Source: Marinobacterium profundum (GTDB lineage Bacteria; Pseudomonadota; Gammaproteobacteria; Pseudomonadales; Balneatricaceae). Taken from it: a stretch of 43,947 bases of DNA. Positions 9,558 to 26,144 of the stretch are shown one piece after another. Under the pieces are notes generated by a model. It was not told where the DNA came from and searched no databases. It was given only the letters and a program-made list of their open reading frames with translations. A program made the translations under genes and the position numbers. Numbering within the stretch: position 1 is the stretch's first letter; the number at the start of each line of letters is the position of its first letter. The stretch is from the NCBI RefSeq assembly GCF_001528745.1, contig NZ_BCNS01000130.1:1-43947 (forward strand), in the 5' to 3' direction.

Positions 9558-9576
9558 TAATAATTGTAGGGTGTTG

Positions 9577-10520: not shown

Positions 10521-11774
10521 ATGAAAAGAATCATAAAAACTAAAAGCATCTTTCTATCTACTGTTTTAGCAGTGGCGTCTATATACATGAGTCCACTCAA
10601 GGCTGCAGAAGAGATTGAGTGGTTACAGTGGTATGCGAGTGAAAGTGGAAAAGAGTATTACGAGGCGCTGGTAGATGACTTCGAATCAAGAAACCCAGAT
10701 ATTAAAGTGAAGCTTGTAACAGTACCTTTTGGAAAAATGCGGGAGAGTCTTATAGCTGATCACTCGGTAGGGATTGGATCAGATGTAATTGCGGTCAATA
10801 TGCCATGGACCCGCGAACTACTGGACATTGGGGTGCTTGAGCCACTGGATAATTATATTGAAAACGATAAGAAAATTTCTCTACAGGATTTAGTACAAGC
10901 TCCATTGGGTAAAATTGATGGAAAAAGGTGGATGGTTCCGGTTAGCGCATTTCCATTCGTGCTTTTCTATAATAAAGATCTTATGGAAAAAGCAGGTGTT
11001 ACTGAAGTGCCGAAAACGTGGGATGACCTAATGGCCTCTTCAAAGAAAATAAATGACCCAGAAAATGGCGTTTATGGTATTGGTTTAGCCTATTCTACAC
11101 AGCCACCTAGCAATGGTCCTATAATATCAATGTTACCTTTGCTTTACACCGCCGGGGGCAGAATTACAAAGGAGGGGAAACCTAACTTTGATAATCCGGA
11201 AGTGATTGAGACGCTTAAATACATTAAAAGCTTAAACGATGAGGGTGTTGTTGCACCTGGTTATGCATCGAAAACTGATGGCGTAAATATGGAAGAGTTC
11301 TCAGCCGGCAGACTTGGTTTTGTCATCGATCCTGCTGTGCATATTTCTACTTTCTCTAAAAATGAAAGGCTAAATTTTGGTGTTGCGCCCGTTCCTGCTG
11401 CCGAAAAAAGTGCTTACCGTGTACATGGCTGGGAGTTGGCTATTTCGTCCAAAAGCAAGCATAAGGATGAAGCCTGGAAATTTATTTCTTACTTGCTGAG
11501 TCCGGAAGTGAATGCTGAATTTGCCATGAAAACAGGATCTTTTCCTGGAAACTTGAATTCCTTAGAGTTGTTTGAAGTTGAAGATGAGCGTCAAACAGCG
11601 GTTTTTGATATTCTAAAAAATAGTGAGGCTGTTGAAGAGTTACGAGAATCCCCGAAAGCAGTTTCCAGCTGGCAGATTATGACAGAGGAAATACAGGCGA
11701 TGTTGGGTGGGCAGCAATCAGCTGAGGATACAGCGAAAAACTCTCAAGCTCGCTGGAAGGCTATTTCCGAATAG
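10521..11774 (+). CDS. ABC importer substrate-binding protein, family 1 (module B)
   Basis: A 417-residue extracellular solute-binding protein. The signal peptide runs MKRIIKTKSIFLSTVLAVAS and onward, with probable cleavage after PLKA near residue 29. The mature protein begins AEEIEWLQWYASESGKEYYE and has the family 1 pattern, including FVLFYNKDLMEKAGVTEVPK and GWELAISSKS. The ATG at 10521 follows TAGGTGA; an earlier in-frame ATG at 10506 would place that site inside the gene. It should deliver a sugar-like ligand to the module B permeases. An intercistronic hairpin follows, as in module A. Confidence 0.92.
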   Translation: MKRIIKTKSIFLSTVLAVASIYMSPLKAAEEIEWLQWYASESGKEYYEALVDDFESRNPDIKVKLVTVPFGKMRESLIADHSVGIGSDVIAVNMPWTRELLDIGVLEPLDNYIENDKKISLQDLVQAPLGKIDGKRWMVPVSAFPFVLFYNKDLMEKAGVTEVPKTWDDLMASSKKINDPENGVYGIGLAYSTQPPSNGPIISMLPLLYTAGGRITKEGKPNFDNPEVIETLKYIKSLNDEGVVAPGYASKTDGVNMEEFSAGRLGFVIDPAVHISTFSKNERLNFGVAPVPAAEKSAYRVHGWELAISSKSKHKDEAWKFISYLLSPEVNAEFAMKTGSFPGNLNSLELFEVEDERQTAVFDILKNSEAVEELRESPKAVSSWQIMTEEIQAMLGGQQSAEDTAKNSQARWKAISE

Positions 11775-11796
11775 CAATAGTTATCATATTGTAGGG

Positions 11797-11817
11797 GTGA
11801 GGCTGGCTAGGCCTCAC
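11797..11817 (+). promoter_or_regulatory. Intercistronic hairpin after binding-protein gene (module B)
   Basis: Perfect 7-bp stem GTGAGGC/GCCTCAC with a 7-base loop, 22 bases after the binding-protein stop and 33 bases before the permease start. There is no T-run. It parallels the hairpin at 4347-4388 in module A and probably favours binding-protein mRNA. Confidence 0.55.
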
Positions 11818-11850
11818 TTAAAATACTATAAAAACTATAGGTGACTCTCT

Positions 11851-12753
11851 GTGAAATGGCTTGACTCATGTGGTTTTGTAAAATCAGGCCGGTTGACTCC
11901 GTACTTCTTTATGGCACCTGCCTTATTGATTTTAGGGTCTTTGATGATATTCCCGATTTTACAGGTAATTGAATATAGCTTCTATGATAACGTTATTGTA
12001 ACGAGTGACTCTACTTTTGTAGGTTTTGATAATTACAAAGAACTTGCGTTTGATCCTATTTTTTGGACTAGTATATTTAATACCATAATTTTTACTGTCG
12101 GTTCAGTAGTAGGTCATTTAGTCGTTGGTATATTCTTGGCTCTTCTTATTAATAGCCCTATTCATCCTGTTCCAAGGGCAATATTCAGAACGCTTCTGGT
12201 TTTACCATGGCTTTTTACTGCGGTTGTGGTTGCGCTTAATTGGCAGCTATTGTTGCACCCATTCGGGATAATAAATTACGCTTTAAAAGATTTCGGAATA
12301 ATTGATAGCCATGTTGATTGGCTGGGTGACGAAAGTGTTGCGATGGCTACACTACTTGTCATTAGCATATGGCGTGGCTATCCGTTCTTGATGATTAGCT
12401 TTTTGAGTGGTCTTCAAAGTATTGACAAATCAATGTACGAGGCTGCAAAGATTGATGGGGCAGGATGGTTTAGAATCTTCTTCTCAATAACAATCCCTCA
12501 GCTTAAACCTATCATTTATGGTGTTGCGTTACTTGATTTGATATGGACATTTCAACTATTCCCGCTCGTTTGGTTGACGACAGGTGGTGGGCCTGGCAGA
12601 GCAACAGAAGTTCTTTCAACCTATACGTACCGCTTTGCCTTTGTAGATTTTGAATTTTCTAAAGCTTCAACCGTCGCTGTCATATTGCTAACTTTTACCG
12701 CAGTTTTGACGATATTATATTTGCGTAAAGGTAAAGGTAAAAGTGAAATTTAA
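11851..12753 (+). CDS. ABC sugar permease, MalF type (module B)
   Basis: A 300-residue inner-membrane permease. It uses a GTG start with TAGGTGA eight bases upstream; the next segments (TPYFFMAPALLILGSLMIFP) are the usual first helix of the family. Coupling loop: YEAAKIDGAGWFRIFFSITI, fully canonical. The motif TGGGPGRATEVLSTYTYRFA is typical of MalF/UgpA-type permeases. It pairs with the MalG-type permease encoded at the start of the module. Confidence 0.91.
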   Translation: MKWLDSCGFVKSGRLTPYFFMAPALLILGSLMIFPILQVIEYSFYDNVIVTSDSTFVGFDNYKELAFDPIFWTSIFNTIIFTVGSVVGHLVVGIFLALLINSPIHPVPRAIFRTLLVLPWLFTAVVVALNWQLLLHPFGIINYALKDFGIIDSHVDWLGDESVAMATLLVISIWRGYPFLMISFLSGLQSIDKSMYEAAKIDGAGWFRIFFSITIPQLKPIIYGVALLDLIWTFQLFPLVWLTTGGGPGRATEVLSTYTYRFAFVDFEFSKASTVAVILLTFTAVLTILYLRKGKGKSEI

Positions 12754-12770
12754 AATAAGAGGAAGTAGTA

Positions 12771-13868
12771 ATGTCTGGAATTGCGCTAAGTAATCTTAAA
12801 AAGTCCTATGGTGATACAGATATATTGCATGGGATTGACTTAGAGATAAAAAATGGTGAGTTTGCGGTATTCGTGGGGCCATCAGGGTGCGGCAAGTCGA
12901 CGACGCTTAGAATGATCGCCGGTTTGGAGACCGTTACGAGTGGAGAGATTTTTATCGGCGATCAATTGGTTAACGATGTACAGCCAAAAAATCGCGGTAT
13001 AGCAATGGTTTTTCAAAGTTATGCTCTTTATCCTCATATGTCTGTGTATGACAATATGGCGTTTTCTTTGAAACTTCGAAAAATGCCTCCTGGAGAGGTT
13101 CAGAAGCGTGTTAGATCTGCAGCGGATACTCTTGAGCTGACCAAGATGCTCGATAGAAAGCCCAGTGCATTATCGGGTGGTCAGCGTCAGAGGGTTGCAA
13201 TGGGGCGAGCGATTGTTCGGGATCCTGAAGTGTTTTTATTTGATGAGCCTTTGTCCAACCTGGACGCGACGCTTCGAACACAAATGCGTGCAGAGATTAA
13301 GGAACTTCATCAGAGGCTAAAGTCAACGATTGTCTATGTGACGCATGACCAGGTTGAAGCAATGACGCTTGCTGACCGAATCGTCATTATGCGGGGAGGA
13401 AAAATAGAGCAATCTGGCACTCCAGAGGATGTATTTCATAATCCAGCTAGTATGTTTGTTGCATCGTTTATGGGTAGCCCGCCAATGAATCTGGCTGAGT
13501 CAACGGTTTATGATAATGGTGCGGAGAAGGGTGTTAATATAAATGGCACGGTTTCTATCATAAGCTCTGAAGACTCTCCGTTGAGCTCGAAAGCTGGCGA
13601 TAGAGTGGTGTTTGGTATTCGGCCTGAAGATATTGTCCCTGACTTCGAATCTGATATAAATAATAAAAATTGGACCGCAAGTGTTAAAGTTGATCTAATC
13701 GAGCTTTTGGGCTCGACTAAATTATTTCACTTTCATATAGGTACGAATAAATTTATAGGGAAGGCGGGTGGTAGATCAAATATTGAACCGGGACAGGTGA
13801 TTTCAGTTGTTATGGACATGCGGCATGCTCGATACTTTGATCCAGAAACTGAACTTATCATTCGTTAA
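12771..13868 (+). CDS. ABC importer ATPase, MsmK/UgpC type (module B)
   Basis: A 365-residue nucleotide-binding subunit with Walker [11 protein letters not shown]-loop [13 protein letters not shown], signature [14 protein letters not shown], Walker [14 protein letters not shown] and H-loop [10 protein letters not shown], then the MalK-type regulatory domain. The first 240 residues are closely similar to the module A ATPase (by eye well over half identical), although the DNA is much more AT-rich. It lies 17 bases after the permease gene with an AAGAGGAAG site. Confidence 0.94.
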
Positions 13869-13921
13869 TAAGAGTCTTGGTCGTCTACCTGACCTTGTTA
13901 AAACTTTGAACGGTGAATTTT

Positions 13922-15457
13922 ATGAGAGATAGTAGACCAAACATACTTTTTATTATGTCAGATGATCATGGAGCAAATGCAATTAGTTTGTACGGATCAA
14001 GGCTGTCCACTGTTTTTAAAACGCCTAACCTGGATCGTATAGGCCTGGATGGCGCAATATTTAAGAATTGTTACTGCACTAATTCAATTTGTACACCAAG
14101 TCGTGCCAGTATACTGACTGGCCAATATCCGCATGTTACAGGTGTAAGGACATTACAGGATCGGTTAGACGAGAGCATAAATACCTTCCCTAAAATCCTG
14201 AAGAAAAGTGGCTATAATACAGCTGTTATCGGTAAGTGGCACTTACATAGTAGACCACAAGGGTTTGATCATTTTGATATTTTGCCTGAGCAAGGAGAGT
14301 ATTTTAACCCTTACTTTGTTAATAAGAATACAGACTGGGTTCAAGTGGAGAATTATTTGAGTCAACAGGCGGATTGGTCAAAGGTCGGAAATTATGGAGA
14401 TATTGGTGATCAGCACGAAGGGTATGTCACTGATATTATTACTGATAAATGTTTGAAGTGGCTTGGAGAGCGAGATCAGGCCAAGCCTTTTTTGTTAATG
14501 TGTCACCATAAAGCGCCGCATGATAATTTTGAGTATCATCCACGTGATGAGCATTTACTGGACGGAGTCGATATCCCTGAGCCGGATAGCTTGTGGGAGG
14601 ATAAAGGGCATCGATCAGAGGGCTCTAGAAACTACGGTTCTTCGTTGTCAGAAAGAAACCCTATTCGAAATGCGGTACAAACGATGAGTCAGCCTGACTA
14701 TCCTACTGGACCCATTGATTTAACGGGGCTGGATGAGGCTGGCCGGACAAAGGCGGTATATCAGAAGTATTTGAAGGATTATTTACGTACAGTCAAAGCC
14801 GTTGATGACAATGTAGGGCGGGTTTTAGATTTATTGGAGAGCGAGGGAACTTTAGATAATACCTTGGTTATTTATACATCAGACCAAGGGATGTTTTTGG
14901 GCGAACATGACTACATTGATAAAAGATGGAGTTTTGAAGAGTCCCTCCAAATGCCCATGATGATGAGATACCCAGAGAAAATTCCCTCCGGAACAGTCGT
15001 CGACCTGGTGGTTAGTAACGTCGATTTTGCACCAACAATTTTGGATTTTTTGGGCATTCCTCAACCTGAAAGTATGCAGGGGCTTAGCTTCAAACCGATA
15101 GCTCAAGGGGTTGAGATGAATGAATGGTCAGATGAGGTTTATTTTCGATACTGGATGCATCTAGCTCATCATGATACTCCAGCACACTATGGAGTGCGTA
15201 CAGCTGAATATAAATTGACATTTTTTTACGGTCTACCACTGGATGCTAAAGGAGCAATGAAAAAGAAGACACCATCGACATGGGAGTTATATGATTTGCG
15301 TCGAGATCCATTTGAGGTTAATAATGTTTACTCTAACCCGGAGTACAAAGATATTGTCGCTAGCCTTAAAGAACGACTTCGCCTGCTGAAAGAGAAAGTC
15401 GGTGACGCTGATAGTGATTATCAAGAGTTGTGTGATCTGTTAGTCGAGACGGAATAG
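13922..15457 (+). CDS. Type I sulfatase, cytoplasmic (module B)
   Basis: A 511-residue sulfatase. Active-site features: D14-D15, formylglycine motif C-T-P-S-R at 57-61 inside SICTPSRASILTGQYPH, GKWH with K105/H107, a HHKAPHDNF segment and the C-terminal metal motif YTSDQGMFLGEH. No signal peptide: the protein begins MRDSRPNILFIMSDDHG, so it should be cytoplasmic like the module A sulfatase. I chose the ATG at 13922 (GGTGA five bases before) over a GTG at 13913 that lacks a site. The two sulfatases differ clearly in length and in residues after the active site, so they probably remove sulfate from different positions or sugars. Last gene of module B. Confidence 0.93.
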   Translation: MRDSRPNILFIMSDDHGANAISLYGSRLSTVFKTPNLDRIGLDGAIFKNCYCTNSICTPSRASILTGQYPHVTGVRTLQDRLDESINTFPKILKKSGYNTAVIGKWHLHSRPQGFDHFDILPEQGEYFNPYFVNKNTDWVQVENYLSQQADWSKVGNYGDIGDQHEGYVTDIITDKCLKWLGERDQAKPFLLMCHHKAPHDNFEYHPRDEHLLDGVDIPEPDSLWEDKGHRSEGSRNYGSSLSERNPIRNAVQTMSQPDYPTGPIDLTGLDEAGRTKAVYQKYLKDYLRTVKAVDDNVGRVLDLLESEGTLDNTLVIYTSDQGMFLGEHDYIDKRWSFEESLQMPMMMRYPEKIPSGTVVDLVVSNVDFAPTILDFLGIPQPESMQGLSFKPIAQGVEMNEWSDEVYFRYWMHLAHHDTPAHYGVRTAEYKLTFFYGLPLDAKGAMKKKTPSTWELYDLRRDPFEVNNVYSNPEYKDIVASLKERLRLLKEKVGDADSDYQELCDLLVETE

Positions 15458-15462
15458 GGCGG

Positions 15463-15501
15463 CATAAAACGTAGAGTATTATTAATGCTCTACGTTTTAT
15501 G
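15463..15501 (+). terminator. Terminator-like hairpin closing module B
   Basis: A perfect 14-bp inverted repeat (CATAAAACGTAGAG/CTCTACGTTTTATG) with an 11-base loop starts six bases after the sulfatase stop. T-rich sequence follows within about 20-30 bases, and the opposing GntR gene ends at 15679. It probably ends transcription of module B. Confidence 0.65.
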
Positions 15502-15678
15502 TAATTATATTGTATTTTAAGTGGTTTTTTTGTTTTTTTGGATTGATTTAAAATATAGAAGGTTCGTTGGCTTGATTCGGATTGAAAGTATACCTTTCGG
15601 TTGGTAGTCAGGCGAGTTTAACGTTGAGCCTGGCTTTAAGTATATTTCTGTAATAATAAACCCGAAAAATTATGTTGG

Positions 15679-16593
15679 TTAACTTGATTTTTCATGAATC
15701 AAGTGGGTGCTGCGCTTAAGCGAAGTTTTAGCCGTGTTTAAGTGGCGCTCCATGCTAAGTGTGGCTTTCGTCAAGTCCTTCATCAGCATGTGGCTGATAA
15801 TATCTATGTGTTCATCAACTGCAACGCTGTTGCGTTCCTTTTCATCACTCTTGTCCCACTGATAGTGGTAATGGAACACAAAACTGATGATGTCGTAGAA
15901 CTGGCGGATGAACTGGTTTTGGTGCGATTCCCACAGTAGAAGGTGAAAGCGCTGGTCAAGTTGTGAAAAGGCGCTGTAGTTACGCTCGATATCCGTTTTC
16001 AGTTCTCGGTGTTGTTGCAACAGCGTTTCCAGCGAGTTCCAGGCGGGGTGTTCAGATGGCAGGCGCATAAAGCGTGAGAGAGCATGCATTTCAAACATGT
16101 GGCGCACTTCATATAGCTGATCGACAAAATCCTCATCGAATTCCTTCATGCGCCACTGGGAGCGGGGCGCCTTGTCGATCAGGCCAAAGCGGGAGAACTT
16201 GATTAGAAACTCCCGCACCGACACGGTGTTGCACTGGGTTTGCCGGGCCAGTTCCAGCTCAGAGAAGTGATCACCTGGCAGGATCTTTCCGCTGAGTATT
16301 AGATCCACGAAGTGCTTCTCGATGATTTCTTCTTTGCTGCTTTCCTGCTGTTCGATCTTGAAGTAATCGCTTGATTGGGGCGAACGCAAGATGATCTTTT
16401 GGGGGCCATCCCGGCGCAGGATGCCGGCTTCTTCCATTTTTTCCAGGGCTTTTCGGATGGTGGAGCGGCTGACATTCAGCTGACGTGTCAAGGCAGAGTC
16501 GTTAGGTAGATTTTCGCCCTTGACCTGCAGCGTTGTGCAGAGATCCAGCAGTTGGTTAATGGTGTTTAGAAACAGGTGATTCTGTCGGCTCAT
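15679..16593 (-). CDS. GntR-family regulator with two winged-helix domains plus FCD domain
   Basis: A 304-residue repressor-like protein, longer than ordinary FCD-type GntR proteins (about 220-250). Residues about 8-70 form one GntR winged helix (LPNDSALTRQLNVSRSTIRK followed by ALEKMEEAGILRRDG). Residues about 85-150 form a second (ILSGKILPGDHFSELELARQ, then VSVREFLIKFSRFGLIDKAP). The rest is an all-helical FCD ligand domain with the expected Asp and His metal-binding positions (LDQRFH, EHIDII, MERHLN). The tandem DNA-binding domains are unusual. It is divergent from the sugar-acid operon at 17138 and converges on module B, so it is the likely local regulator, probably responding to a sugar acid as UxuR/ExuR do. 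Ligand and operators are inference. Confidence 0.88.
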   Translation of the reverse strand: MSRQNHLFLNTINQLLDLCTTLQVKGENLPNDSALTRQLNVSRSTIRKALEKMEEAGILRRDGPQKIILRSPQSSDYFKIEQQESSKEEIIEKHFVDLILSGKILPGDHFSELELARQTQCNTVSVREFLIKFSRFGLIDKAPRSQWRMKEFDEDFVDQLYEVRHMFEMHALSRFMRLPSEHPAWNSLETLLQQHRELKTDIERNYSAFSQLDQRFHLLLWESHQNQFIRQFYDIISFVFHYHYQWDKSDEKERNSVAVDEHIDIISHMLMKDLTKATLSMERHLNTAKTSLKRSTHLIHEKSS

Positions 16594-17137
16594 GGGCTCA
16601 CTGCCTGTATTTTACGCTTGAATAATCTGTTTGGAATTCTATCAGCTCCAGCCGGTTGGGTACAGATTTGCTTGGCTTTATCTGTGATTACTAATAATTA
16701 TAAACACTTTCTATGCCGAGTTTTACGCTGGTTGTTGAATTAAATAGGTGTTTTTTATTAATAATAATTGATCGAATGGTGGTTTTCTGTTTACATGTAT
16801 CTGTGGTCGTATGGCTGTTGCAGGAGGAGGTTGATTATGAGCGCTTTGCTGATATCCAGGAGTCTGTACTGCAAGTGCAGTGAGGCCCTGCATTGCCATG
16901 GGTGTGCTGCTTTCGCCGCTATCGCCAACAGTGTCAACCTTGAAGGGTATAAATCCGCTCAGGACCGTGGTTGCGATAAGAGGGTGCTGTGGATAGCGAA
17001 CCTGCACATACAACGTAAATCCGGTTTCTAAGGCGCCGGACTCTCTTAGGCTTGACTGTTCTCGTTCCGGTGGGATGTTCCGTGGTTTTAGGCTTCGGGG
17101 GCGGGCGGCCTTAATCTTTTGAAGGAATATTTTCCCC
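16594..17137. other. Divergent control region between GntR gene and catabolic operon
   Basis: This stretch of 544 bases has no supported gene; the short frames at 16723-17262 and 16768-17031 lack family features. The part nearest the regulator (about 16660-16770) is AT-rich and likely holds the divergent promoters. The half nearest the operon is more GC-rich and may be a long 5' leader. I found no clear operator or riboswitch. Confidence 0.5.
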
Positions 17138-18154
17138 ATGATGAAAGCGGTGGTGTGTCTGGAGCCGGGCCTGATGGAGGCCCGTACGGTAGAGAAGCCC
17201 GTGCCCGGCAAGGGCGAGGTGTTGATTCGGGTAAAGCGTGTGGGGGTCTGCGGTACGGACATTCACGCTTTTTCGGGCAGTCAGCCTTATTTTCAGTATC
17301 CGCGGGTGCTCGGGCATGAGCTGGCTGGCGTGATCGAAGCGGTGGGCGAGGACGCAGACTTTCCGCTGGGCGTTGAGGCCTATGTGATTCCCTACCTCGA
17401 ATGTGGCAATTGCGTGGCCTGTCGCCAGGGCAAGACCAACTGCTGTACCCGGATGCAGGTCATGGGGGTGCATCTGGATGGTGGCATGTGCGAGTACCTG
17501 GTGGTGCCCGCCGATCATGTTATCAAGGCGCCGGGGCTGGAGCTGGACCAGCTGGCGCTGGTGGAATGCCTGGCCATTGGTGCCCATGCGGTGCGCCGCG
17601 CCGATGTGCAGCCAGGCTCTACCGTGCTGGTGGTGGGCGCAGGCCCCATTGGCATGGGTATCATGCAGTTTGCCAAGGCGCGCGGTGCCCGTGTGCTGGT
17701 GATAGATACCAACGCCGAGCGCCTTGGTTTTTGCAAGGACAGCCTGGGTGTTGATGCGGTGATTGAGGCCGGTGACGGCGCCAGGGCACAGCTGGAATCC
17801 CTCACCGACGGCGATTATCCCCACACCGTGTTTGATGCCACCGGCAATCCCAAAGCCATGATGGCGGGTTTTGACTGGATTGCCCACGGTGGCAGCTATG
17901 TGCTGGTCAGTGTGGTCAAGGCGGACATCACCTTTTCCGACCCTGAGTTTCACAAGCGAGAACTGAGCCTGCTGGGCAGCCGCAATGCGACTCGGGAGGA
18001 TTTCGAACGGGTCGTGAGCTGCCTGCTGGATGGTTCGGTGCAGGCGTCTGCAATGATTACGCACCGAGGTCATCTGTCGCAGCTGGCCGAACTTTTCCCG
18101 CTTTGGGTACAGCCCTCCAGTGGCGTGATTAAAGCGGTTGTGGAGGTGGGCTGA
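17138..18154 (+). CDS. Zinc alcohol dehydrogenase, L-galactonate 5-dehydrogenase (LgoD)-like
   Basis: A 338-residue medium-chain Zn-dependent dehydrogenase. Catalytic zinc residues lie in GVCGTDIH and GHE (near residues 38-61). The structural zinc loop has four Cys in ECGNCVACRQGKTNCC, and the NAD-binding motif is GAGPIGMG. The nearest functional group I recognise is the RspB/LgoD (YjjN) branch, which oxidises L-galactonate at C5 to D-tagaturonate. The following two genes encode the next two steps of exactly that route, which supports the call. First gene of a seven-gene operon; AAGGAA precedes the ATG by about 11 bases, and a second ATG follows at once. It overlaps the next gene by one base. 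Substrate assignment is inference; sorbitol- or threonine-type activity is the alternative. Confidence 0.8.
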   Translation: MMKAVVCLEPGLMEARTVEKPVPGKGEVLIRVKRVGVCGTDIHAFSGSQPYFQYPRVLGHELAGVIEAVGEDADFPLGVEAYVIPYLECGNCVACRQGKTNCCTRMQVMGVHLDGGMCEYLVVPADHVIKAPGLELDQLALVECLAIGAHAVRRADVQPGSTVLVVGAGPIGMGIMQFAKARGARVLVIDTNAERLGFCKDSLGVDAVIEAGDGARAQLESLTDGDYPHTVFDATGNPKAMMAGFDWIAHGGSYVLVSVVKADITFSDPEFHKRELSLLGSRNATREDFERVVSCLLDGSVQASAMITHRGHLSQLAELFPLWVQPSSGVIKAVVEVG

Positions 18155-19344
18155 TGGTCTCGAACTCTGAGGCGCGCTCCCAGGCACCAGGCTCCCAGGT
18201 GCACGGCGAGTCGAAGGCTGGGCCGCTGATTATGCAGTTTGGCACCAGCCGCTTTCTGCAGGCCCATGTGGACTATTTTGTCGGCCAGTCCCTGGCGGCC
18301 GGGCGCTCGTCGGCCCGGTTGGCGGTGGTGCAGACCTCTGCCAGTACTTCAGGTAAGGCGCGGGTGGCCGCCATGAACCGCCTGGCCAGTTATCCGGTGC
18401 GTATTCAGGGCGTGCAGCGTGGCGAGCTGGTGGACTTCGAGGAGCAGGTCAGCGCTATCGACTGTGCCCTGGTGGCCAATGATGACTGGGTGCAGGTGGT
18501 GCAGCTGTTCTGTCACCGTGTTACGCACCTGGTATCCAACACTGCGGACACCGGTTATGAGCTGCACGGCGATGACAGGCCTACGGATACGCTGCCGCAA
18601 AGCTTTCCGGCCAAATTGCTGGTGCTGCTCTATGCGCGTTACCAGACGACGGGGCAGGGGCTGACGCTGATGCCCTGTGAGCTGCTCGCCAATAATGGCA
18701 CTGTGCTAAAGACCATCGTGCTGGAGCTGGCGCTGCGCTGGAATCTGCCCGAGGTATTCAGGCACTGGCTGGAAAGCCAGTGCCTGTGGATCAACTCCCT
18801 GGTGGATCGCATCGTCTCGGCGCCCATTGAGCCGCTGGGCGCGGTGGCTGAACCCTACGCGCTTTGGGCGATTGAGAACCAGGTCGGGCTGGAGTTGCCC
18901 TGTGAGCATGCAGCAATTCGCGTGGTGCCGGATCTGGCGCCGCTGGAATGGCTCAAGCTGGGTGTTCTGAACCTGTCCCACAGCTATCTGGTGGAGCTGT
19001 GGCAGCAGGCGCCCTCGGGTATCACGACTGTGTATCAGGCCATGAAGGACCCGCAGCTTGTAGGCGAGCTGAACGCGCTGCTGCAGTATGAGGTGGTGCC
19101 AATCCTGCGGGCCATGGCGCTGGGTGAGGACATTGATGCCTATGTACAGAGCGTGCGCGATCGCTTTATGAACCCCTACCTGGAGCATCGTCTGGCCGAC
19201 ATTGCCCAGAACCACAGCACCAAGATTGAACGTCGCCTGTTGCCGATCTGGCAGCAGGGACAGGCCTTGAGGCCGGATCTGGCGTGCCCGCGGCTTGAGG
19301 GCTGCCTGCGCCACCATCAACTGTTAGCGGAGACTGTGGCATGA
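18154..19344 (+). CDS. Tagaturonate reductase (UxaB)-like, mannitol dehydrogenase family
   Basis: A 396-residue member of the long-chain mannitol dehydrogenase family (UxaB/UxuB/MtlD). The N-terminal Rossmann part contains MQFGTSRFLQAHVDYF, a family hallmark. The central segment LMPCELLANNG matches the tagaturonate/fructuronate reductase motif, and the C-terminal helical domain carries the NLSHSYL segment. UxaB reduces D-tagaturonate to D-altronate with NADH. Its place between an LgoD-like dehydrogenase and a UxaA-like dehydratase fits this reaction. It is shorter than E. coli UxaB (about 480 residues), so specificity may differ. Translationally coupled on both sides by overlapping start/stop codons. 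Confidence 0.82.
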   Translation: MVSNSEARSQAPGSQVHGESKAGPLIMQFGTSRFLQAHVDYFVGQSLAAGRSSARLAVVQTSASTSGKARVAAMNRLASYPVRIQGVQRGELVDFEEQVSAIDCALVANDDWVQVVQLFCHRVTHLVSNTADTGYELHGDDRPTDTLPQSFPAKLLVLLYARYQTTGQGLTLMPCELLANNGTVLKTIVLELALRWNLPEVFRHWLESQCLWINSLVDRIVSAPIEPLGAVAEPYALWAIENQVGLELPCEHAAIRVVPDLAPLEWLKLGVLNLSHSYLVELWQQAPSGITTVYQAMKDPQLVGELNALLQYEVVPILRAMALGEDIDAYVQSVRDRFMNPYLEHRLADIAQNHSTKIERRLLPIWQQGQALRPDLACPRLEGCLRHHQLLAETVA

Positions 19345-20987
19345 CACTCACCCGACGCACGCTCAAGGTGCACCCGGCGGACGACCTGATCGTAGCCTTG
19401 ACCGACTTGCCTGCCGGTGAGCCGATCAGCCTTGATGGCAGCATTTTGCTACTGCGCGAGGCCATCCGCGCCAAGCACAAATTTACTGCTCGGGATTTTG
19501 CCCAGGGCGAGCGGCTGACCATGTACGGTGTCACCGTGGGTACGGCGGTGGCGCCTATCGCCGCAGGTTCGTTGGTAAACGTGGAGAACCTGCACCACAG
19601 CAGCAGCACCTATGGCGAGGGCAATGGCGATTATCAGTGGCAGGCGCCGGATGTGGAGGCCTGGAAATCCCGCACCTTTGATGGCTTTGTACGCGCCGAT
19701 GGTCAGGTGGGTACGGCCAATTACTGGCTGGTGGTGCCGCTGGTGTTCTGCCAGAACCGCAACATCGAAACTCTGCGTGACGCGCTGCAGGATGCTCTGG
19801 GGTACAGCAGCGAAAGCCACTATCGCCAGCTGGCCTGGGACCTGGCCTCCGAGTACCGCCAGCCCGGCGCTTGGGCACCGGTGATTGAACGCAGCGAAAC
19901 CTTTGCCGTGAATTCGCGGCCGTTTCCCCAGGTGGATGGCGTCAAGTTCATTACCCATACGGCGGGCTGCGGTGGTACGCGCGAAGACGCGCTGACCCTG
20001 TGCCGACTGCTGGCAGGCTACATTCATCACCCCAATGTGGCCGGTGCCACTGTGCTGAGCCTGGGCTGCCAGAATGCCCAGGTCAGCCTGCTGCAGGAGG
20101 AACTGGCCAAACTGGATCCGGCCGGGCGCACGCCGGTGCAGTATTTCGAGCAGCAGGAGTACGGGTCGGAAAACACCATGATGCAGGCGGCGATCCGCCA
20201 GACATTCGAAGGCCTTGCCGTGGCCAATCGATGCCAGCGCGAGCCTGTGCCCCTGTCGGGTTTGACAATCGGGGTGGAGTGCGGCGGATCCGATGGTTTC
20301 TCGGGCCTGTCGGCCAATCCGCTGATCGGCCAGGTGGCGGACCGCATCGTCGCCCTGGGCGGGCGGGCGATTCTGGGGGAGTTTCCGGAGCTGTGCGGCG
20401 TTGAACAGGACATTCTTGACCGTTGCACGGACGACGATCTGCGCCAGCGTTTCAAGGGGCTGATGCAATCCTACGAGCGTCACGCGCAGGCGGTGGGGGC
20501 GAGCTTTGACATGAACCCGTCGCCCGGAAATATTCGGGATGGTTTGATTACCGATGCGATGAAATCGGCCGGGGCTGCCCGCAAGGGCGGCACTGCACCG
20601 GTGGCAGATGTGCTGGATTACCCGCAGGTGGCCACCAAGCCCGGGCTGAATCTGCTCTGTACGCCGGGTAATGATGTGGAGTCCACCACGGCGCTGGCCG
20701 GTGCCGGCGCCAACCTGATTCTGTTCTCCACTGGCATGGGCACCCCCACCGGCAATCCGGTGGTACCTGTGCTCAAGGTGTCGAGCAACAGCGAGACGGC
20801 AAGGCGCATGGCGGACATTATCGATTTTGATGCCGGCGCCATTATTTCCGGCCAGGAAGACATGGCGGTACTGGCCGAGCAGCTGCTGCAGCTGTGCAGC
20901 GACACCGGCTCCGGAAAATACATCAGCAAGGCCCAGCGCCTCGGTCAGGACGACTTCATCCCCTGGAAGCGCGGCGTCTCGCTGTAG
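19341..20987 (+). CDS. Altronate dehydratase (UxaA)-like
   Basis: A 548-residue UxaA/GarD-type sugar-acid dehydratase. The N-terminal SAF-like domain (about 1-100) is followed by the large catalytic domain with FDGFVRADGQVGTANYWLVV, HTAGCGGTREDALTLCRLLA, LSLGCQNAQ, GVECGGSDGFSGLSANPLIG and SPGNIRDGL. The conserved Cys residues in these motifs are the expected metal ligands. It removes water from D-altronate to give 2-keto-3-deoxy-D-gluconate. It starts inside the previous gene's stop (ATGA). Family members also act on galactarate and related acids, so the substrate rests on context. Confidence 0.88.
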   Translation: MTLTRRTLKVHPADDLIVALTDLPAGEPISLDGSILLLREAIRAKHKFTARDFAQGERLTMYGVTVGTAVAPIAAGSLVNVENLHHSSSTYGEGNGDYQWQAPDVEAWKSRTFDGFVRADGQVGTANYWLVVPLVFCQNRNIETLRDALQDALGYSSESHYRQLAWDLASEYRQPGAWAPVIERSETFAVNSRPFPQVDGVKFITHTAGCGGTREDALTLCRLLAGYIHHPNVAGATVLSLGCQNAQVSLLQEELAKLDPAGRTPVQYFEQQEYGSENTMMQAAIRQTFEGLAVANRCQREPVPLSGLTIGVECGGSDGFSGLSANPLIGQVADRIVALGGRAILGEFPELCGVEQDILDRCTDDDLRQRFKGLMQSYERHAQAVGASFDMNPSPGNIRDGLITDAMKSAGAARKGGTAPVADVLDYPQVATKPGLNLLCTPGNDVESTTALAGAGANLILFSTGMGTPTGNPVVPVLKVSSNSETARRMADIIDFDAGAIISGQEDMAVLAEQLLQLCSDTGSGKYISKAQRLGQDDFIPWKRGVSL

Positions 20988-21043
20988 GGATCAGCGGTAG
21001 GGGGATTGGTGATTAGTAACAGCCATAAGCGGGGACAAAGACG

Positions 21044-21385
21044 ATGAAGCAGTATGCACTGACGCTGGACCTTAAAGACGACCCGGCGCTGATCGAGGCT
21101 TACAAGCAGCATCATCAACAGGTGTGGCCGCAGGTGATTGCCAGCCTGAAACAGGTGGGTGTGCTGGACATGCAAATCTATTGCCATGGCAACCGGCTCT
21201 TTATGCTCAGCACCACGGTGGATGACTATGAGCCGCAGCGCGCCTACGAGGCCTATCTGCAGCTCGATCCGGCCTGCCGGGAATGGGAAGCCCTGATGGA
21301 TCAGTTTCAGCAGCGACTGCCGGGCGCCTTGCCCGATGAAAAATGGCTGCCGATGGAATGCTGTTTTGACATGCAAAAGTGCTGA
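21044..21385 (+). CDS. Sugar mutarotase, RhaM (L-rhamnose/L-fucose mutarotase) family
   Basis: A 113-residue ferredoxin-fold mutarotase of the RhaM/DUF718 family, usual length about 104-115. Motifs: YKQHHQQVWPQVIASLKQVG near the N-terminus with the catalytic-site His, IYCHGNRLFML in the middle and LPDEKWLPMECCFDM at the end. It interconverts anomers of an L-sugar, supplying the form used by the aldose dehydrogenase encoded three genes on. L-fucose and L-galactose share the same ring stereochemistry, so either fits. It lies 56 bases after the dehydratase gene. Confidence 0.86.
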   Translation: MKQYALTLDLKDDPALIEAYKQHHQQVWPQVIASLKQVGVLDMQIYCHGNRLFMLSTTVDDYEPQRAYEAYLQLDPACREWEALMDQFQQRLPGALPDEKWLPMECCFDMQKC

Positions 21386-21397
21386 AGGAGAGCGCCT

Positions 21398-22225
21398 GTG
21401 AGAATTGATGCGCATCAGCATTTCTGGCGCTACAGCGCGGCGGATTACGGCTGGATTGATGGCGCAATGGACGTGCTGAAGCGGGACTACCTGCCAGATG
21501 ATCTGGCGGCTGTGCTGCAACGCCAGCGCCTTGATGGCAGCATCGCCGTGCAGGCCCGCCAGTGCGAGGATGAAACGCGCTGGCTGCTGCAGCTGGCGCG
21601 CGACAAGCCCCGGATTCTGGCGGTCATCGGCTGGATTGATCTGCAGGCCGAGGATCTGGATACCAGGCTCGCAGCCGTTGCGGGTGAGGCGCAGCTCAAG
21701 GGGTTTCGCCATGTATTGCAGGATGAAGCCGAGCCCGGTTTCATGTTGCGACCCGCCTTCGTGCGCGGCCTTCAGCGTCTGGCTCAGCTGGATTATTGCT
21801 ACGAGCTGCTGATCAAGCCACAGCAGTTGCCCGAGGCCTGTAGCTTGCTGCAACAGCTGCCGCCCATGCGTCTGGTGCTGGATCATGTTGCCAAGCCGGA
21901 TATCCGCGGCGGTGATCTGGCAGCCTGGCGTGCCGGCATCGCCGAGCTCGGGTCCCATCCGCACCTGTATTGCAAGGTCTCGGGGCTGGTCACTGAAGCT
22001 CACTGGAACGGCTGGAGTGCGGTGGACTTTGAGCCCTGTCTTGAGCATGTGTTTGACTGCTTCGGGCCACAGCGGCTGATGTTTGGCTCCGACTGGCCCG
22101 TTTGCCTGCTGGCAGCGCCCTACGCCGGCGTACAGGCGCTGCTGGCCGACTTCGTACGCCGGCACTACCCGGAGCATGAGGCGGCGGTCTTTGGTGACAA
22201 CGCCCGGCGCTTTTACGGGCTTTAA
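21398..22225 (+). CDS. Sugar lactone hydrolase, amidohydrolase 2 family (L-fucono/L-galactonolactonase-like)
   Basis: A 275-residue TIM-barrel metal-dependent hydrolase of the COG3618 type. Metal ligands are visible in the N-terminal DAHQHFW, in VLDHVAKPD and in the C-terminal FGSDWPVC. Characterised relatives open L-fuconolactone, L-rhamnonolactone or L-galactonolactone. Here it should hydrolyse the lactone made by the neighbouring aldo-keto reductase. GTG start with an AAGGAGAG site, 12 bases after the mutarotase gene. Confidence 0.87.
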   Translation: MRIDAHQHFWRYSAADYGWIDGAMDVLKRDYLPDDLAAVLQRQRLDGSIAVQARQCEDETRWLLQLARDKPRILAVIGWIDLQAEDLDTRLAAVAGEAQLKGFRHVLQDEAEPGFMLRPAFVRGLQRLAQLDYCYELLIKPQQLPEACSLLQQLPPMRLVLDHVAKPDIRGGDLAAWRAGIAELGSHPHLYCKVSGLVTEAHWNGWSAVDFEPCLEHVFDCFGPQRLMFGSDWPVCLLAAPYAGVQALLADFVRRHYPEHEAAVFGDNARRFYGL

Positions 22226-22257
22226 CAAATTTTGCTACCAATAAAAGGGTTTGGCGC

Positions 22258-23208
22258 ATGCAATACCGCACACTGGGAAAAACCGGCCTTGAGATATCAA
22301 CTCTGGGCTACGGCGCCTCGCCGCTGGGCGGGGTCTTTCGCGATGTGGATGCCTCAATCGGCATTCGCACCGTGCATACCGCGCTGGATGCGGGCATCAA
22401 TCTGATCGACTGTTCCCCCTATTACGGTCTCACCCGGGCGGAAACGGTGCTGGGCAAGGCACTCAAGGGGATCGAGCGCGAACGGTACTTTATCTCGACC
22501 AAGGCCGGGCGCTATGGCGCGCAACCCAGCGACTTCGATATGTCGGCAAAGCGTATCCGCCAGAGCCTGGATGAGAGCCTGGTGCGGCTCGGCGTCGATG
22601 AAGTGGATATTTTCCTGCTGCATGATATTGAATTCGTCGATCTGGATATAGTGCTGCACGAGGCGCTGCCATGCCTTGAGCGGCTCAAGGCAGAGGGTCG
22701 AATACGCGCCTTCGGTGTGACCGGCTATCCGCTGCGCAGCTTTGCCCAGGTTATCGAAGGGTTCGATATCGACTGCATTCTGACCTACTGCCGCTATGCC
22801 CTGCACGACAGGTCACTGGAGCGCCTGATGCCGCAGCTGGAGGCCCGCAATATCGGCATTATCAATGGCTCGCCCACCTGCATGGGACTGCTGACCGAAC
22901 GCGGCGCGCCGGACTGGCACCCGGCGGATGCGGCGCTGCGCGAATGTGCCCGCCGGGCGACGGAGCTGTGCCGGGAGCGGGGTGTCGATATCACCCGCAT
23001 CGCGCTGCAATTCGCCGTGCAACACCCGCTGATTGCATCCACCCTGGTGGGCACCGCCAACCCCGACAACCTGCTGAAGAACCTGCAATGGATTGATGAA
23101 CCGCTGGATCAGGCATTGGCGACGGAACTCAGTGCGCTCTTTGCGGCTCAGCCGGGCGCTGTCTGGCCCTCGGGCCTGCCACAGAACAGTGACGAGGTGG
23201 CGGCATGA
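22258..23208 (+). CDS. Aldo-keto reductase, L-galactose (L-fucose) 1-dehydrogenase-like
   Basis: A 316-residue aldo-keto reductase with the full catalytic tetrad: D51, Y56 (in DCSPYYG), K82 (in STKAGRYG) and H122 (in LLHDIEF). From memory it resembles plant cytosolic L-galactose dehydrogenase unusually well: SPYYG near 53, LGKALKG, HDIEF, GLLTERGAPDWHPA and the C-terminal WPSGLPQN all have close counterparts there. The predicted reaction is NAD(P)-dependent oxidation of L-galactose (or L-fucose) at C1 to the lactone, handed to the lactonase encoded upstream. The final four bases overlap the kinase gene. Bacterial relatives are often annotated D-threo-aldose 1-dehydrogenase or L-fucose dehydrogenase, which accept both sugars. 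Confidence 0.86.
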   Translation: MQYRTLGKTGLEISTLGYGASPLGGVFRDVDASIGIRTVHTALDAGINLIDCSPYYGLTRAETVLGKALKGIERERYFISTKAGRYGAQPSDFDMSAKRIRQSLDESLVRLGVDEVDIFLLHDIEFVDLDIVLHEALPCLERLKAEGRIRAFGVTGYPLRSFAQVIEGFDIDCILTYCRYALHDRSLERLMPQLEARNIGIINGSPTCMGLLTERGAPDWHPADAALRECARRATELCRERGVDITRIALQFAVQHPLIASTLVGTANPDNLLKNLQWIDEPLDQALATELSALFAAQPGAVWPSGLPQNSDEVAA

Positions 23209-24278
23209 CAGAGCCCCGCATACTGCAGGTCCCGCCCGAAGATGCACAGAGCTATGATTGCCTCGCCCTGGGGGAGGTGATGCTGCGGCTGGACCCGGGC
23301 GAGGGCCGTATTCGCCGCGCGAATGCCTTCAATGTCTGGGAAGGGGGCGGTGAATATAATGTTGTGCAGGGCCTGAGCCAGTGTTTCAACCGGCGCACGG
23401 CGATTGTCAGTGCGCTGGTGGACAACGAAGTGGGCCGCCTGATCGAGGGGCTTATCCGGCGCTCCGGCGTGGACAGTCGCTGGATTCACTGGCAACCCCA
23501 CGATGGCCTGGGGCAGGCCGCGCGCAATGGCCTCTATTTCATGGAGCGTGGTTTTGGCGAGCGCGGCGCGGCGGCGGTGATGGATCGTGGCCACACGGCG
23601 ATCGCCCAGCTACAGGCCTCGGATATCGACTGGAGCGCGCTGTTTTCCACCGCCAGGCCCCGCTGGTTCCATGTCGGCGGTGTAATGGCAGGGCTGAGTG
23701 AATTGAGTCATGCCGTGGTGGCGGCCGCCATGCAGGCGGCCAGGGCACAGGGCGCCGTGGTCTCCTATGACCTCAATTACCGCGCCTCCCTGTGGCAGTC
23801 CCGCGGTGGCCGGGCTGCAGCCAAAGCCGCCAACGCAGAGCTGATTCAGTATGCCGATGTGCTCTTTGGCGTCGAGAGCCTGCCGCGACCGGTTGATAGC
23901 CTGGATGAAGCCGTATTTGGCGATGCGCTGCAGCAGATGCAGCAGCAGTTTCCCCATCTCAGGCAGGTGGTCAGTACCATGCGGGTGGTGAAGGATGCCT
24001 CCCACAATGACTGGAGCGGTATCTGCCTGTCGGGCGGTCAGTTGTATAGCGCAAGGCCGAGGCTTGGCCTGTCGATACTCGATCGGGTTGGGGGCGGGGA
24101 TGCCTTTGCCGGCGGCTATATTCACGCCATGCTGGCCGGCATGGAGATCCCCCAGGCGCTGGACATCGCCACGGCCCATGGTGCCCTGGTGATGACCACG
24201 CCGGGTGACAACTCGATGCTTGCCAAAGCTGATGTGCTGGCGTGCGCCCAGGGAGATGATGCCGCTGCAAGGCGCTGA
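23205..24278 (+). CDS. PfkB-family sugar kinase, 2-keto-3-deoxygluconate kinase-like
   Basis: A 357-residue ribokinase/PfkB-type kinase. The N-terminal region has the substrate-side motifs (LALGEVMLRLDPGEG, GGGEYNV), and the C-terminal signature DRVGGGDAFAGGYIHAMLAG carries the catalytic Asp and anion hole. The best fit is KdgK, which phosphorylates 2-keto-3-deoxygluconate at C6 to KDPG, the step after the UxaA reaction. It is coupled to the reductase gene (ATGA overlap) and ends the operon. No KDPG aldolase gene is present in the window; it would have to be elsewhere in the genome. Confidence 0.87.
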   Translation: MTEPRILQVPPEDAQSYDCLALGEVMLRLDPGEGRIRRANAFNVWEGGGEYNVVQGLSQCFNRRTAIVSALVDNEVGRLIEGLIRRSGVDSRWIHWQPHDGLGQAARNGLYFMERGFGERGAAAVMDRGHTAIAQLQASDIDWSALFSTARPRWFHVGGVMAGLSELSHAVVAAAMQAARAQGAVVSYDLNYRASLWQSRGGRAAAKAANAELIQYADVLFGVESLPRPVDSLDEAVFGDALQQMQQQFPHLRQVVSTMRVVKDASHNDWSGICLSGGQLYSARPRLGLSILDRVGGGDAFAGGYIHAMLAGMEIPQALDIATAHGALVMTTPGDNSMLAKADVLACAQGDDAAARR

Positions 24279-24366
24279 ATTCCCGGTTGTTGTTCAGTGC
24301 CAGGGGCCTGCTATTCTTCTGTCCTTTACGGTATTCCCTGTTATCTGCCTGCCTCAGCCACTTTGT

Positions 24367-24384
24367 CCGACGCTTAAGCGTCGG
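24367..24384. terminator. 18-bp perfect palindrome downstream of the catabolic operon
   Basis: CCGACGCTTAAGCGTCGG is its own reverse complement. It lies 88 bases after the kinase stop and ten bases before the repeat element. It may be a bidirectional terminator stem (no T-run) or a protein-binding site. Confidence 0.35.
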
Positions 24385-24393
24385 TGCTCTAGC

Positions 24394-24695
24394 AGCCTGT
24401 CGGACTTACCACTGATCTACTGCGGAAAAGCCTCTCTCTTTAACAAAGAGGGGTCATTTTTGTTTACTCTTTTAGAACCACTATGCACAAGCTACATCCC
24501 TGTAGCTTGCCCTGCGGGCAGCTAACGCTGTGCAAATCGGCTATCCTGCCGATTTGTCGCCTCAAAAGAGTTCAAAAACTGCCTCATTCTATCGTAGGGA
24601 GTGATTGAACGCGCAAGCCCCGAAGGGGTGAAGCACATGGATGTGCTGAACAAAACGGACTTTCCCTCGCTACGACCGGCCAAGTCCGACAGGCT
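24394..24695. repeat. Inverted-repeat-bounded non-coding element (MITE-like)
   Basis: The element is about 302 bp and bounded by perfect 14-bp inverted repeats, AGCCTGTCGGACTT at 24394-24407 and its complement at 24682-24695. It encodes no transposase. Inside are several hairpins: around 24489-24510 (9-bp arms, loop TCCC), around 24535-24560 (CAAATCGGC/GCCGATTTG) and 24633-24648 (AGCACAT-GG-ATGTGCT). The first 89 bases resemble 43865-43947, sharing CTACTGCG and TAGAACCACT at similar spacing. It looks like a non-autonomous mobile repeat; no target-site duplication is obvious. Confidence 0.65.
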
Positions 24696-25145
24696 CTAGC
24701 CGCACCGCTGCGTGCTTTTTACCCTGCTGAATTATTCAAATATGCCCGCTGTATTTCCTTAGAGGTGTGCCACACTCACTGAGCAGGTTTGTGTACGGCT
24801 GCGGCTTTTACACAGGCTGGATATGATCCAGCAGATTCTGTAACAGTCATTTATTCTGGGGTGTAGCGGCTCGGCATTGTTGCCACCGCTGGAGCTTCAG
24901 GGTGCCTGAACGGCTGTGTTTATTCTGTTTTAAAATGATATAGTGTCTCTTCGCGAAGACATTCAGGATATTTTTCCCTGTGTGTTTTTTTGCTGGTAAG
25001 TTACTGTAAATGTTTGAATTTTATTTGTTTTACAAGTTTATAACAAAAAAAATGTTAAGCGTATTGTTGCTGATTTTGGACTAATCTGGGTGTTATATTC
25101 AGGCCTTTCAGTGATGAGTGCTAATTGATGAAACCGGAGTCCGCC

Positions 25146-26144
25146 ATGAAGAAGTCTCTCGCAGCAGTCGCACTTATGCTGGCTGCATCTACCGGCTATG
25201 CCGCCGAAGATTGCGGCAAAGTCACGATCGCAGACATGAACTGGAGCTCGGCGACACTGATCGCCAATATCGACCGTTTTATACTTGAACATGGTTTTGG
25301 CTGCGCAGCAGAACTGGTGCCCGGTGATACCATGCCCACCACCACCTCCATGATGGAAAAGAAAGAACCGGATATAGCTCCGGAGCTCTGGACCAACTCT
25401 TTCCAGGCCGCTTTGGATACCGCCGTGGCTGACGGTCAGCTACAGGTGGCAGGCAAGGTACTGTCCGAGGGTGGCGAAGAGGCACTCTGGGTACCCAAAT
25501 ACATGGTCGACAAGGATCCGAGTCTGGCGACTATTGAGGGCATTAAGGCCAATGCCAAGCTGTTTACGCACCCTGAAGATCCGGATCGTTCGGCGCTGAT
25601 TGGCTGCCCGGCGGGCTGGGGTTGTCAGCTGGTAGTGAATAACCTGTACCGTGCCCTCAAGCTGGAAGACGCAGGGTTTGAGCTGATTGATCCGGGCTCG
25701 GCGGCAGGGCTGGATGGCTCCATTGCCCGTGCCTATGAGCGCGAGCAGGCCTGGCTGGGCTACTACTGGGCGCCAACGGCTATTCTTGGCAAGTACGACA
25801 TGGTGAAGGTTGATTTTGGCAGCGGTATAGACAAGGAGCATTTCCTTAGCTGCACCACCAAGGAAGACTGTCTTGAACCCAAGGTGACCATGTGGCCCGA
25901 GTCGCCGGTGTACAGTTACACCACGTCTGATTTCGCCAAAAGCCACCCCAAAGAGTTTGAATACCTGGCCACCCGCTCATTCACTAACAGCGATCTGAAC
26001 AAGCTGCTGGCATGGATGGAAGACAATCAGGCCGATGGTGAAATCGCCATGGAGCATTTCCTGATGGAAAACGAAAGCAGCTGGTCCACCTGGCTGGAGC
26101 CTGAAGTCGCCGCCAGGGTTAAGGATGCGCTCGGCAAGCTGTAA
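25146..26144 (+). CDS. Glycine betaine/choline-type ABC binding protein (OpuAC/ProX family)
   Basis: A 332-residue periplasmic binding protein. The signal peptide is MKKSLAAVALMLAASTGYAA with A-x-A cleavage near residue 20, followed by an OpuAC-type domain (VTIADMNWSSATLIANIDRF). Trp-rich ligand segments such as APELWTNSF and WLGYYWAPTAILG are typical of quaternary-amine binding boxes. The ATG at 25146 follows GGAG by six bases; earlier in-frame starts at 25125/25128 would lengthen the leader needlessly. It is the first gene of a three-gene importer likely used for osmoprotection or choline/betaine catabolism in a saline habitat. The exact ligand is uncertain. Confidence 0.9.
   Translation: MKKSLAAVALMLAASTGYAAEDCGKVTIADMNWSSATLIANIDRFILEHGFGCAAELVPGDTMPTTTSMMEKKEPDIAPELWTNSFQAALDTAVADGQLQVAGKVLSEGGEEALWVPKYMVDKDPSLATIEGIKANAKLFTHPEDPDRSALIGCPAGWGCQLVVNNLYRALKLEDAGFELIDPGSAAGLDGSIARAYEREQAWLGYYWAPTAILGKYDMVKVDFGSGIDKEHFLSCTTKEDCLEPKVTMWPESPVYSYTTSDFAKSHPKEFEYLATRSFTNSDLNKLLAWMEDNQADGEIAMEHFLMENESSWSTWLEPEVAARVKDALGKL

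Follow-up and report, generated by a model that had tools for sequence, protein, structure and literature searches.

A 43,947-nucleotide contig of Marinobacterium profundum (NZ_BCNS01000130.1 of assembly GCF_001528745.1; hereafter the window, meaning the whole stretch of DNA that was analysed) carries, at positions 17138–24278, seven consecutive genes that most probably constitute an operon for the catabolism of L-galactose, taking the sugar as far as 2-keto-3-deoxy-6-phosphogluconate (KDPG). Protein families, gene order, relatives and motifs can be observed directly, and it is from these that we infer the substrates, the ligand of the regulator and the order of the steps. The same assignment had been made in an original prediction, and it is supported by the aldo-keto reductase (AKR) of the operon, whose best matches in the Protein Data Bank (PDB) are L-galactose dehydrogenases, by a first gene whose product is 45% identical to LgoD of Escherichia coli, and by a divergent gene for an LgoR-like regulator.

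Organisation of the operon and the divergent regulator gene

All seven open reading frames lie on the + strand, in the order dehydrogenase (17138–18154), reductase (18154–19344), dehydratase (19341–20987), mutarotase (21044–21385), lactonase (21398–22225), AKR (22258–23208) and kinase (23205–24278). The junctions between successive genes measure -1, -4, 56, 12, 32 and -4 bases, an operon-like spacing with overlaps of 1–4 bases at three junctions and intervals of 12–56 bases at the rest. In the same order, Pfam places the proteins in the Zn-dependent alcohol dehydrogenase family, the mannitol-dehydrogenase family, the UxaA/GarD type (SAF, GD_AH_second and GD_AH_C domains), rhaM, Amidohydro_2, Aldo_ket_red and PfkB. 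These are the families that the original prediction had named, listed there in the order of the pathway, and the reading frames, Pfam and the kinship seen with NCBIfam models all agree with it.

Divergent from the operon, on the - strand at 15679–16593, lies a gene for a regulator with Pfam GntR and FCD domains, which shares 41.6% identity with E. coli LgoR across 296 columns; in E. coli too, lgoR and lgoD are divergent. This regulator, which the original prediction overlooked, is the strongest single pointer to L-galactonate because it is independent of any guesswork about enzyme families. It probably controls the operon, and would do so by sensing L-galactonate or a neighbouring intermediate. 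In the gap between regulator and operon, an AT-rich near-palindrome at 16751–16767 (no strand assigned) is a possible operator of the LgoR-like protein, a weak candidate that serves as a lead only. Palindromes resembling TTTTTAATAATAAAAA stand upstream of the regulator in five related loci (L009, L010, L011, L013 and L079), a recurrence that was seen in AT-rich gaps and has no shuffle control. Promoter-like sites numbered 7 against 4.3 (sd 2.4) in shuffled sequences, and terminator-like sites 6 against 9.4 (sd 2.9).

The proposed pathway

The route would begin with the mutarotase, a member of the L-rhamnose mutarotase family (Pfam rhaM, 98.6 bits), which would speed the exchange of anomers; its best PDB match, a weak one at 29.8 bits, is an L-fucose mutarotase. 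The AKR, of the L-galactose 1-dehydrogenase type, would then oxidise L-galactose at C1 to L-galactono-1,5-lactone. Its top five PDB sequences are all L-galactose dehydrogenases, scoring 307–257 bits with the next entry at 105 bits, a gap of about 150 bits. The protein also has D51, Y56, K82 and H122, which we take to be the expected AKR motif residues. The lactonase, an amidohydrolase-superfamily protein predicted to act on L-galactono- or L-fucono-lactone, would open the lactone to give L-galactonate. It scores 311 bits with the NCBIfam L-fucono-1,5-lactonase model, whose cut-off is 400, and 241 bits with PDB entry 4dlf, which is deposited as an amidohydrolase and is presumably an L-fucono-lactonase by function.

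The product of the first gene, predicted to be an L-galactonate 5-dehydrogenase of the LgoD type, would next oxidise C5 of L-galactonate to form D-tagaturonate. It was called LgoD-like at the outset, and rightly so in that it is 45.4% identical over 335 residues to E. coli LgoD as against 34.3% over 329 to RspB; it carries the zinc motifs expected of LgoD. In a 35-row tree built from 32 chosen loci together with the window protein and two from E. coli, the protein clusters with the other operon copies (98/95) and with that of Catenovulum (94/94), the Bacteroidota dehydrogenases (B. finegoldii and Prevotella) falling on the RspB side with support of 94/93. E. coli LgoD itself forms a long branch in this tree, the join of which is flagged by the program as possibly false.

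D-tagaturonate would be reduced to D-altronate, with inverted configuration at C5, by the predicted UxaB-type reductase. At 396 residues this protein is 87 residues shorter than E. coli UxaB (483 residues), to which it is 29.3% identical over 392 columns; its best NCBIfam match is tagaturonate reductase, at 239 bits against a cut-off of 359, and it has the KxxxxNxxH motif of UxaB. Dehydration of D-altronate to 2-keto-3-deoxy-D-gluconate (KDG) would fall to the predicted UxaA-type altronate dehydratase (548 residues, SAF and GD_AH domains), which is 33.4% identical over 545 columns to E. coli UxaA. The only NCBIfam model that it matches is galactarate dehydratase, at 235 bits and far under the cut-off of 731. 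It keeps the four cysteines described for the UxaA family (PMC6336799), at Cys137, Cys210, Cys243 and Cys314 as matched through the alignment with E. coli UxaA.

The last enzyme of the operon, a PfkB-family protein, is predicted to be the kinase that would convert KDG into KDPG. Its nearest PDB match is the KDG kinase 2afb (136 bits), and the NCBIfam models for an aldolase/kinase fusion (220 bits) and for KDG/KDGal kinase (146 bits) both match under their cut-offs, such that the protein resembles both the KDG kinase of Thermotoga and the kinase portion of fusions with KDPG aldolase. It also carries the motif DRVGGGDAFAGG, which we take to be a kinase motif. It had been described as KdgK-like, a label that is loose as regards E. 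coli KdgK: the two proteins are 24% identical over only 163 of 357 residues and the NCBIfam KdgK model scores 36 bits against a cut-off of 400. The operon kinase thus appears not to be of the E. coli KdgK type, with KdgK apparently belonging to another PfkB subgroup. Finally, KDPG would be split into pyruvate and glyceraldehyde-3-phosphate by a KDPG aldolase encoded elsewhere in the genome. Two PF01081 genes were found there, neither of them in the window, of which one scores over the cut-off of the eda subfamily and the other is a KDPGal aldolase by subfamily.

Conservation in other genomes and on plasmids

A scan of genome contigs with the AKR gave 248 relatives, and the best 80 of these 248 loci were used for counting. 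Six of the 80 hold the dehydrogenase, reductase, dehydratase, mutarotase, lactonase and AKR in the order of the window, which indicates that the gene set is not a product of chance. They come from three Oceanospirillaceae metagenome-assembled genomes (DT_73, DT_74 and DT_75), Marinomonas phaeophyticola, Natronospirillum operosum and an Osedax symbiont. Their enzymes are about 48–73% identical to those of the window, with 77% over the 144 residues left of the AKR in the Osedax symbiont. A homologue of the regulator is present on the locus in all six, at 57–60% identity in five and 36% in L014. The synteny of seven families that the original prediction proposed as a check was found for six of them; the kinase lies within the fetched stretch in only three of the six relatives (L010, L012 and L014). 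Of the others, L011 ends about 2.9 kb past the AKR and the contig of the Osedax symbiont (L079) ends inside it.

Genes for monosaccharide-type ATP-binding cassette (ABC) importers adjoin the operon in the six relatives, recognised by Pfam in L012, L013 and L014 and by N-terminal sequence likeness in L010, L011 and L079. This pairing bears on the idea that the operon serves essentially for L-galactonate, or L-gulonate, with free L-galactose not being a natural substrate. The lgoT-lgoR-lgoD genes of E. coli have no free-sugar genes alongside, and the L-galactonate loci of Halomonas and Chromohalobacter are fed by TRAP transporters (PMC5507952), as would be expected from such a role. A mutarotase and an AKR would be useless for an acid, however, and importers of the monosaccharide type likewise speak against an operon confined to acids, which we regard as very unlikely.

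The smaller association of AKR and Zn-dehydrogenase extends much further. A homologue of the LgoD-like protein (tblastn, E 1e-6) lies within 6 kb of the AKR in 60 of the 80 loci, which span Bacteroidota, Bacillota, Planctomycetota and others, so that this two-gene core is widespread. Among 72,556 plasmid records, four match the AKR at E 1e-50. A plasmid locus (L124) of Catenovulum adriaticum, which was obtained from algae, encodes relatives of the dehydrogenase, lactonase and AKR at 60, 49 and 62% identity. It also has UxaA-type (35%) and mutarotase (37%) genes, and a further gene that is annotated as of the mannitol dehydrogenase family. Between 6347 and 32998 of L124 these relatives have three sulfatases, GH2 genes and an annotated alpha-L-fucosidase in their vicinity; this is perhaps a locus for an L-galactose-containing sulfated galactan. 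A plasmid of Bacteroides finegoldii bears a cluster of AKR, amidohydrolase, fucP and Zn-dehydrogenase.

Within the genus, the best match to the AKR in six other genomes reaches only E 3e-20 and about 30% identity. Just past the end of the operon, at 25125, lies a glycine-betaine-type ABC system whose three proteins have counterparts of 91–99% identity in G001 and G003, two further species of the genus. Beyond that system, about 24.6 kb of G001 and 3.3 kb of G003 hold no counterpart of the 1–24.3 kb block, as searched with 15 query proteins in which the regulator, the LgoD-like protein and the kinase stood for the operon; the sole matches were of the two importer ATPases with the glycine-betaine ATPase. 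The missing block and the weak AKR matches together mark the region as accessory.

Weight of the assignment and the case for L-fucose

Several observations weigh against the assignment to L-galactose. None of the seven proteins passes an NCBIfam curated cut-off, so that these models indicate kinship and not certified function, and identity to the corresponding E. coli proteins is low for the reductase (29%), the dehydratase (33%) and the kinase (24%, over 163 residues). There is no transporter gene inside the seven-gene operon. No homologue of the kinase was found in about 10 kb downstream of the Marinomonas locus (L013), and at E 1e-6 neither the kinase nor the reductase of the window was matched in the Catenovulum locus. 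Moreover, the sugar kinase in the cluster of Luteolibacter sp. LG18, a system considered below, is a fructokinase that is not needed for the route, the KDG kinase coming from a distant gene (PMC12632266), and hence the position of a kinase is no proof of its role. Lastly, enzymes of the UxaA and AKR families can act on D-arabinonate, L-fuconate, D-arabinose or L-fucose (PMC6336799).

This breadth of substrates raises the possibility, compatible with a role in L-galactose catabolism, that the mutarotase, AKR and lactonase form an upper arm that also serves L-fucose (and D-arabinose), with L-fuconate being either handed on to enzymes encoded elsewhere or dehydrated by the UxaA-type protein of the operon. 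The best NCBIfam model of the lactonase and the weak best PDB match of the mutarotase both point to L-fucose, and a Paraburkholderia AKR oxidises D-arabinose, L-fucose and L-galactose alike (PMC6336799). The UxaA/GarD superfamily includes a D-arabinonate dehydratase and, by gene context, an L-fuconate dehydratase (PMC6336799), the Halomonas lgoD, uxaA and uxaB genes adjoin L-fuconate genes (PMC5507952), and on plasmids fucP adjoins the AKR in Bacteroides whilst a GH95 gene lies a few kb from it in Paenibacillus. Against this, LgoD, UxaB and a KDG-type kinase would make no sense for a 6-deoxy acid, the C6 of which cannot be phosphorylated, and the L-fucose activity of LguA, the LG18 AKR belonging to the L-galactose dehydrogenase cluster, is reported as not measurable (PMC12632266).

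The original prediction had dismissed L-fucose on that chemical ground and on the absence of a fuconate dehydratase. The chemistry is sound, and Pfam finds no enolase-type dehydratase or short-chain dehydrogenase among the seven operon genes. In the genome, eight of ten MR_MLE_C hits were scanned by family at E 1e-20 without any being named as a fuconate dehydratase, in a library for which the presence of such a model is unconfirmed, and two MR_MLE_C proteins compared with the PDB had no fuconate dehydratase among their matches. The argument from a missing dehydratase is nonetheless not airtight, because some members of the UxaA/GarD family are dehydratases of D-arabinonate or, presumably, of L-fuconate (PMC6336799). 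On balance a second use of the upper arm for L-fucose seems rather improbable, and the breakdown of L-galactose to KDPG remains the preferred role of the operon.

The adjacent sulfatase and importer island

Upstream of the regulator, and likewise passed over in the original prediction, lies an island on the + strand (1374–15457) whose membership in the same system is only proposed. As identified by Pfam, with CUT1 and maturase being our own labels, it comprises sulfatase 1 (1374–2819), a first CUT1-type ABC importer (2957–7355), a radical SAM/SPASM gene resembling sulfatase maturases (7427–8719), a second CUT1-type importer (9538–13868) and sulfatase 2 (13913–15457), all on the + strand. Both sulfatases have CxPSR motifs, and no N-terminal signal peptide is evident in either sequence when read by eye. 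This grouping of two importers, a maturase-like gene and sulfatases that seem to lack signal peptides, directly upstream of the operon, is the least ordinary feature of the region.

The base composition of the island is uneven. Importer 2 and sulfatase 2 (9538–15457) have a GC content of 38–44%, with 34–39% at third codon positions (GC3), in contrast with 54–59% GC for the importer 1 block and 61–64% GC (GC3 71–74%) for the genes at either end of the operon. The island is accordingly a mosaic. The low-GC block looks like a separately acquired module. A 19-pair hairpin stands just after it, at 15462–15502, and 1374–8719 is a second importer-plus-sulfatase cluster of ordinary GC, with parts much as in the low-GC cluster. 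Repeats at the island borders, sought over 7000–25200, amount to three short imperfect direct pairs and no inverted pairs. A scan of the window for transfer RNA genes found none.

Taken together, the two halves suggest that about 1.4–24.3 kb may be one acquired system for sulfated L-galactose, a tentative proposal that we consider doubtful. Sulfated L-galactose, or else short oligosaccharides bearing sulfate, would enter through the two importers and be desulfated inside the cell by cytoplasmic sulfatases that the maturase-like enzyme activates, and the operon would burn the L-galactose set free. Sulfated L-galactose is a reasonable source of the sugar in view of the Catenovulum locus and of the porphyran system in which a GH29 enzyme is an alpha-L-galactosidase (PMC12316285), with the link in the window being one of adjacency alone. 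In known porphyran systems an exo-sulfatase and an alpha-L-galactosidase act on oligosaccharides (PMC12316285), from which intracellular desulfation, if true, would differ.

The distribution of the sulfatases bears on this link. Close homologues were sought at E 1e-60 in the source genome and 37 others, and at E 1e-110 in a phylum-wide set of 398 genomes that again included the source genome; the sole non-self match was one to sulfatase 2 in G001 (47% over 220 residues; 41.5% over 530 columns). Homologues of the pair do lie side by side on plasmids of Fusobacteria ZRK30 (52.5 and 52.0% identity) and Martelella (38 and 42%), neither of which is among the four records matching the AKR. The sulfatase module is therefore separable from the operon, which argues against a joint system for sulfated L-galactose. 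The stretches fetched for the six full-operon relatives contain no sulfatase homologue, a further point against the link, and only eight of the 80 loci, all from Algoriphagus, place one within 6 kb of the AKR, with weak identity (29–37%). The plasmid pairs, at 14353–17263 of L125 (the Fusobacteria, from a cold seep) and 13532–16467 of L126 (Martelella), stand near sugar importer genes as a recurring two-sulfatase module, and L125 also has an annotated anaerobic sulfatase maturase within that stretch.

Comparison with known systems

Red-algal porphyran contains L-galactose sulfated at C6 as one of its building blocks (PMC12316285), and bacteria that finish off this sugar are accordingly of importance for algal carbon turnover. 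The operon would be a compact enzyme set for the conversion of L-galactose to KDPG in one place, lactonase and mutarotase included. It is ordinary in kind and moderately interesting in its context, and the chemistry of the interpretation is probably right.

The joining of a free-sugar arm to the L-galactonate branch, which the original prediction implied to be novel, is already published, and a new pathway is thereby ruled out. In Luteolibacter sp. LG18 the lguABCDEF genes and lguH take L-galactose via L-galactonate, tagaturonate, altronate and KDG to KDPG, as established with recombinant enzymes, each of them assayed, and gene disruptions, the mutants being defective on L-galactose (PMC12632266). 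As predicted for the window, an AKR, an LgoD-type C5 dehydrogenase, a tagaturonate reductase and an altronate dehydratase are described as clustered, with the regulator oppositely oriented, and the intermediates would be the same. The systems differ in that the LG18 cluster includes a KDPG aldolase, which the window operon lacks, whereas its KDG kinase is encoded away from the cluster and favours pyrophosphate; the window kinase is inside the operon. The words lactonase and mutarotase appear nowhere in the LG18 paper (PMC12632266), and both enzymes are present in the window. The LG18 regulator is annotated as Btr-type and not as LgoR-like.

LG18 also uses L-glucose, by means of LguG. With enzymes of the same kinds in the window, and with LguA and LguD accepting both sugars (PMC12632266), a dual pathway for L-glucose and L-galactose might be imagined for the window operon as well. 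L-glucose requires the C4 epimerase LguG, though, and Pfam finds none among the seven genes, the genome not having been searched for that family; L-glucose is, moreover, presumed absent from nature (PMC12632266). Such a dual pathway is thus extremely improbable. According to the same authors, most Lgu enzymes are only distantly related to E. coli LgoD, UxaB, UxaA and KdgK, and no organism was found with all the orthologues except the L-glucose epimerase, that is, an L-galactose-only version (PMC12632266). The window operon and its six relatives look like such an L-galactose-only version of the LG18 route, built from more distant homologues.

The lower part of the proposed route, and the divergent layout of lgoR and lgoD, are shared with E. 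coli, where lgoT-lgoR-lgoD act with uxaA, uxaB and kdgK. Unlike the single operon of the window, the E. coli genes are scattered and include no free-sugar arm. In Bacteroides vulgatus, a 2014 report by Hobbs is said to identify BVU_0219, BVU_0220 and BVU_0222 as an AKR, a lactonase and a Zn-dehydrogenase that convert L-galactose to D-tagaturonate, the lower arm reportedly being common to uronate catabolism. This upper arm is also cited in the LG18 work (PMC12632266), and the plasmid cluster of B. finegoldii resembles it in composition. For Halomonas and Chromohalobacter, an L-galactonate branch of lgoD, uxaA and uxaB has been predicted by comparative genomics, differing from the window in its TRAP transporters and its linkage to L-fuconate genes (PMC5507952); the word L-galactose does not occur in the main text of that paper. 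In the open-licence literature, judged by titles and abstract openings, no report of a seven-gene L-galactose operon of this make-up was found. The window operon is very probably a new example of a known pathway, and what sets it apart is its make-up, with a mutarotase, a lactonase and a kinase within the operon and a regulator of the LgoR type.

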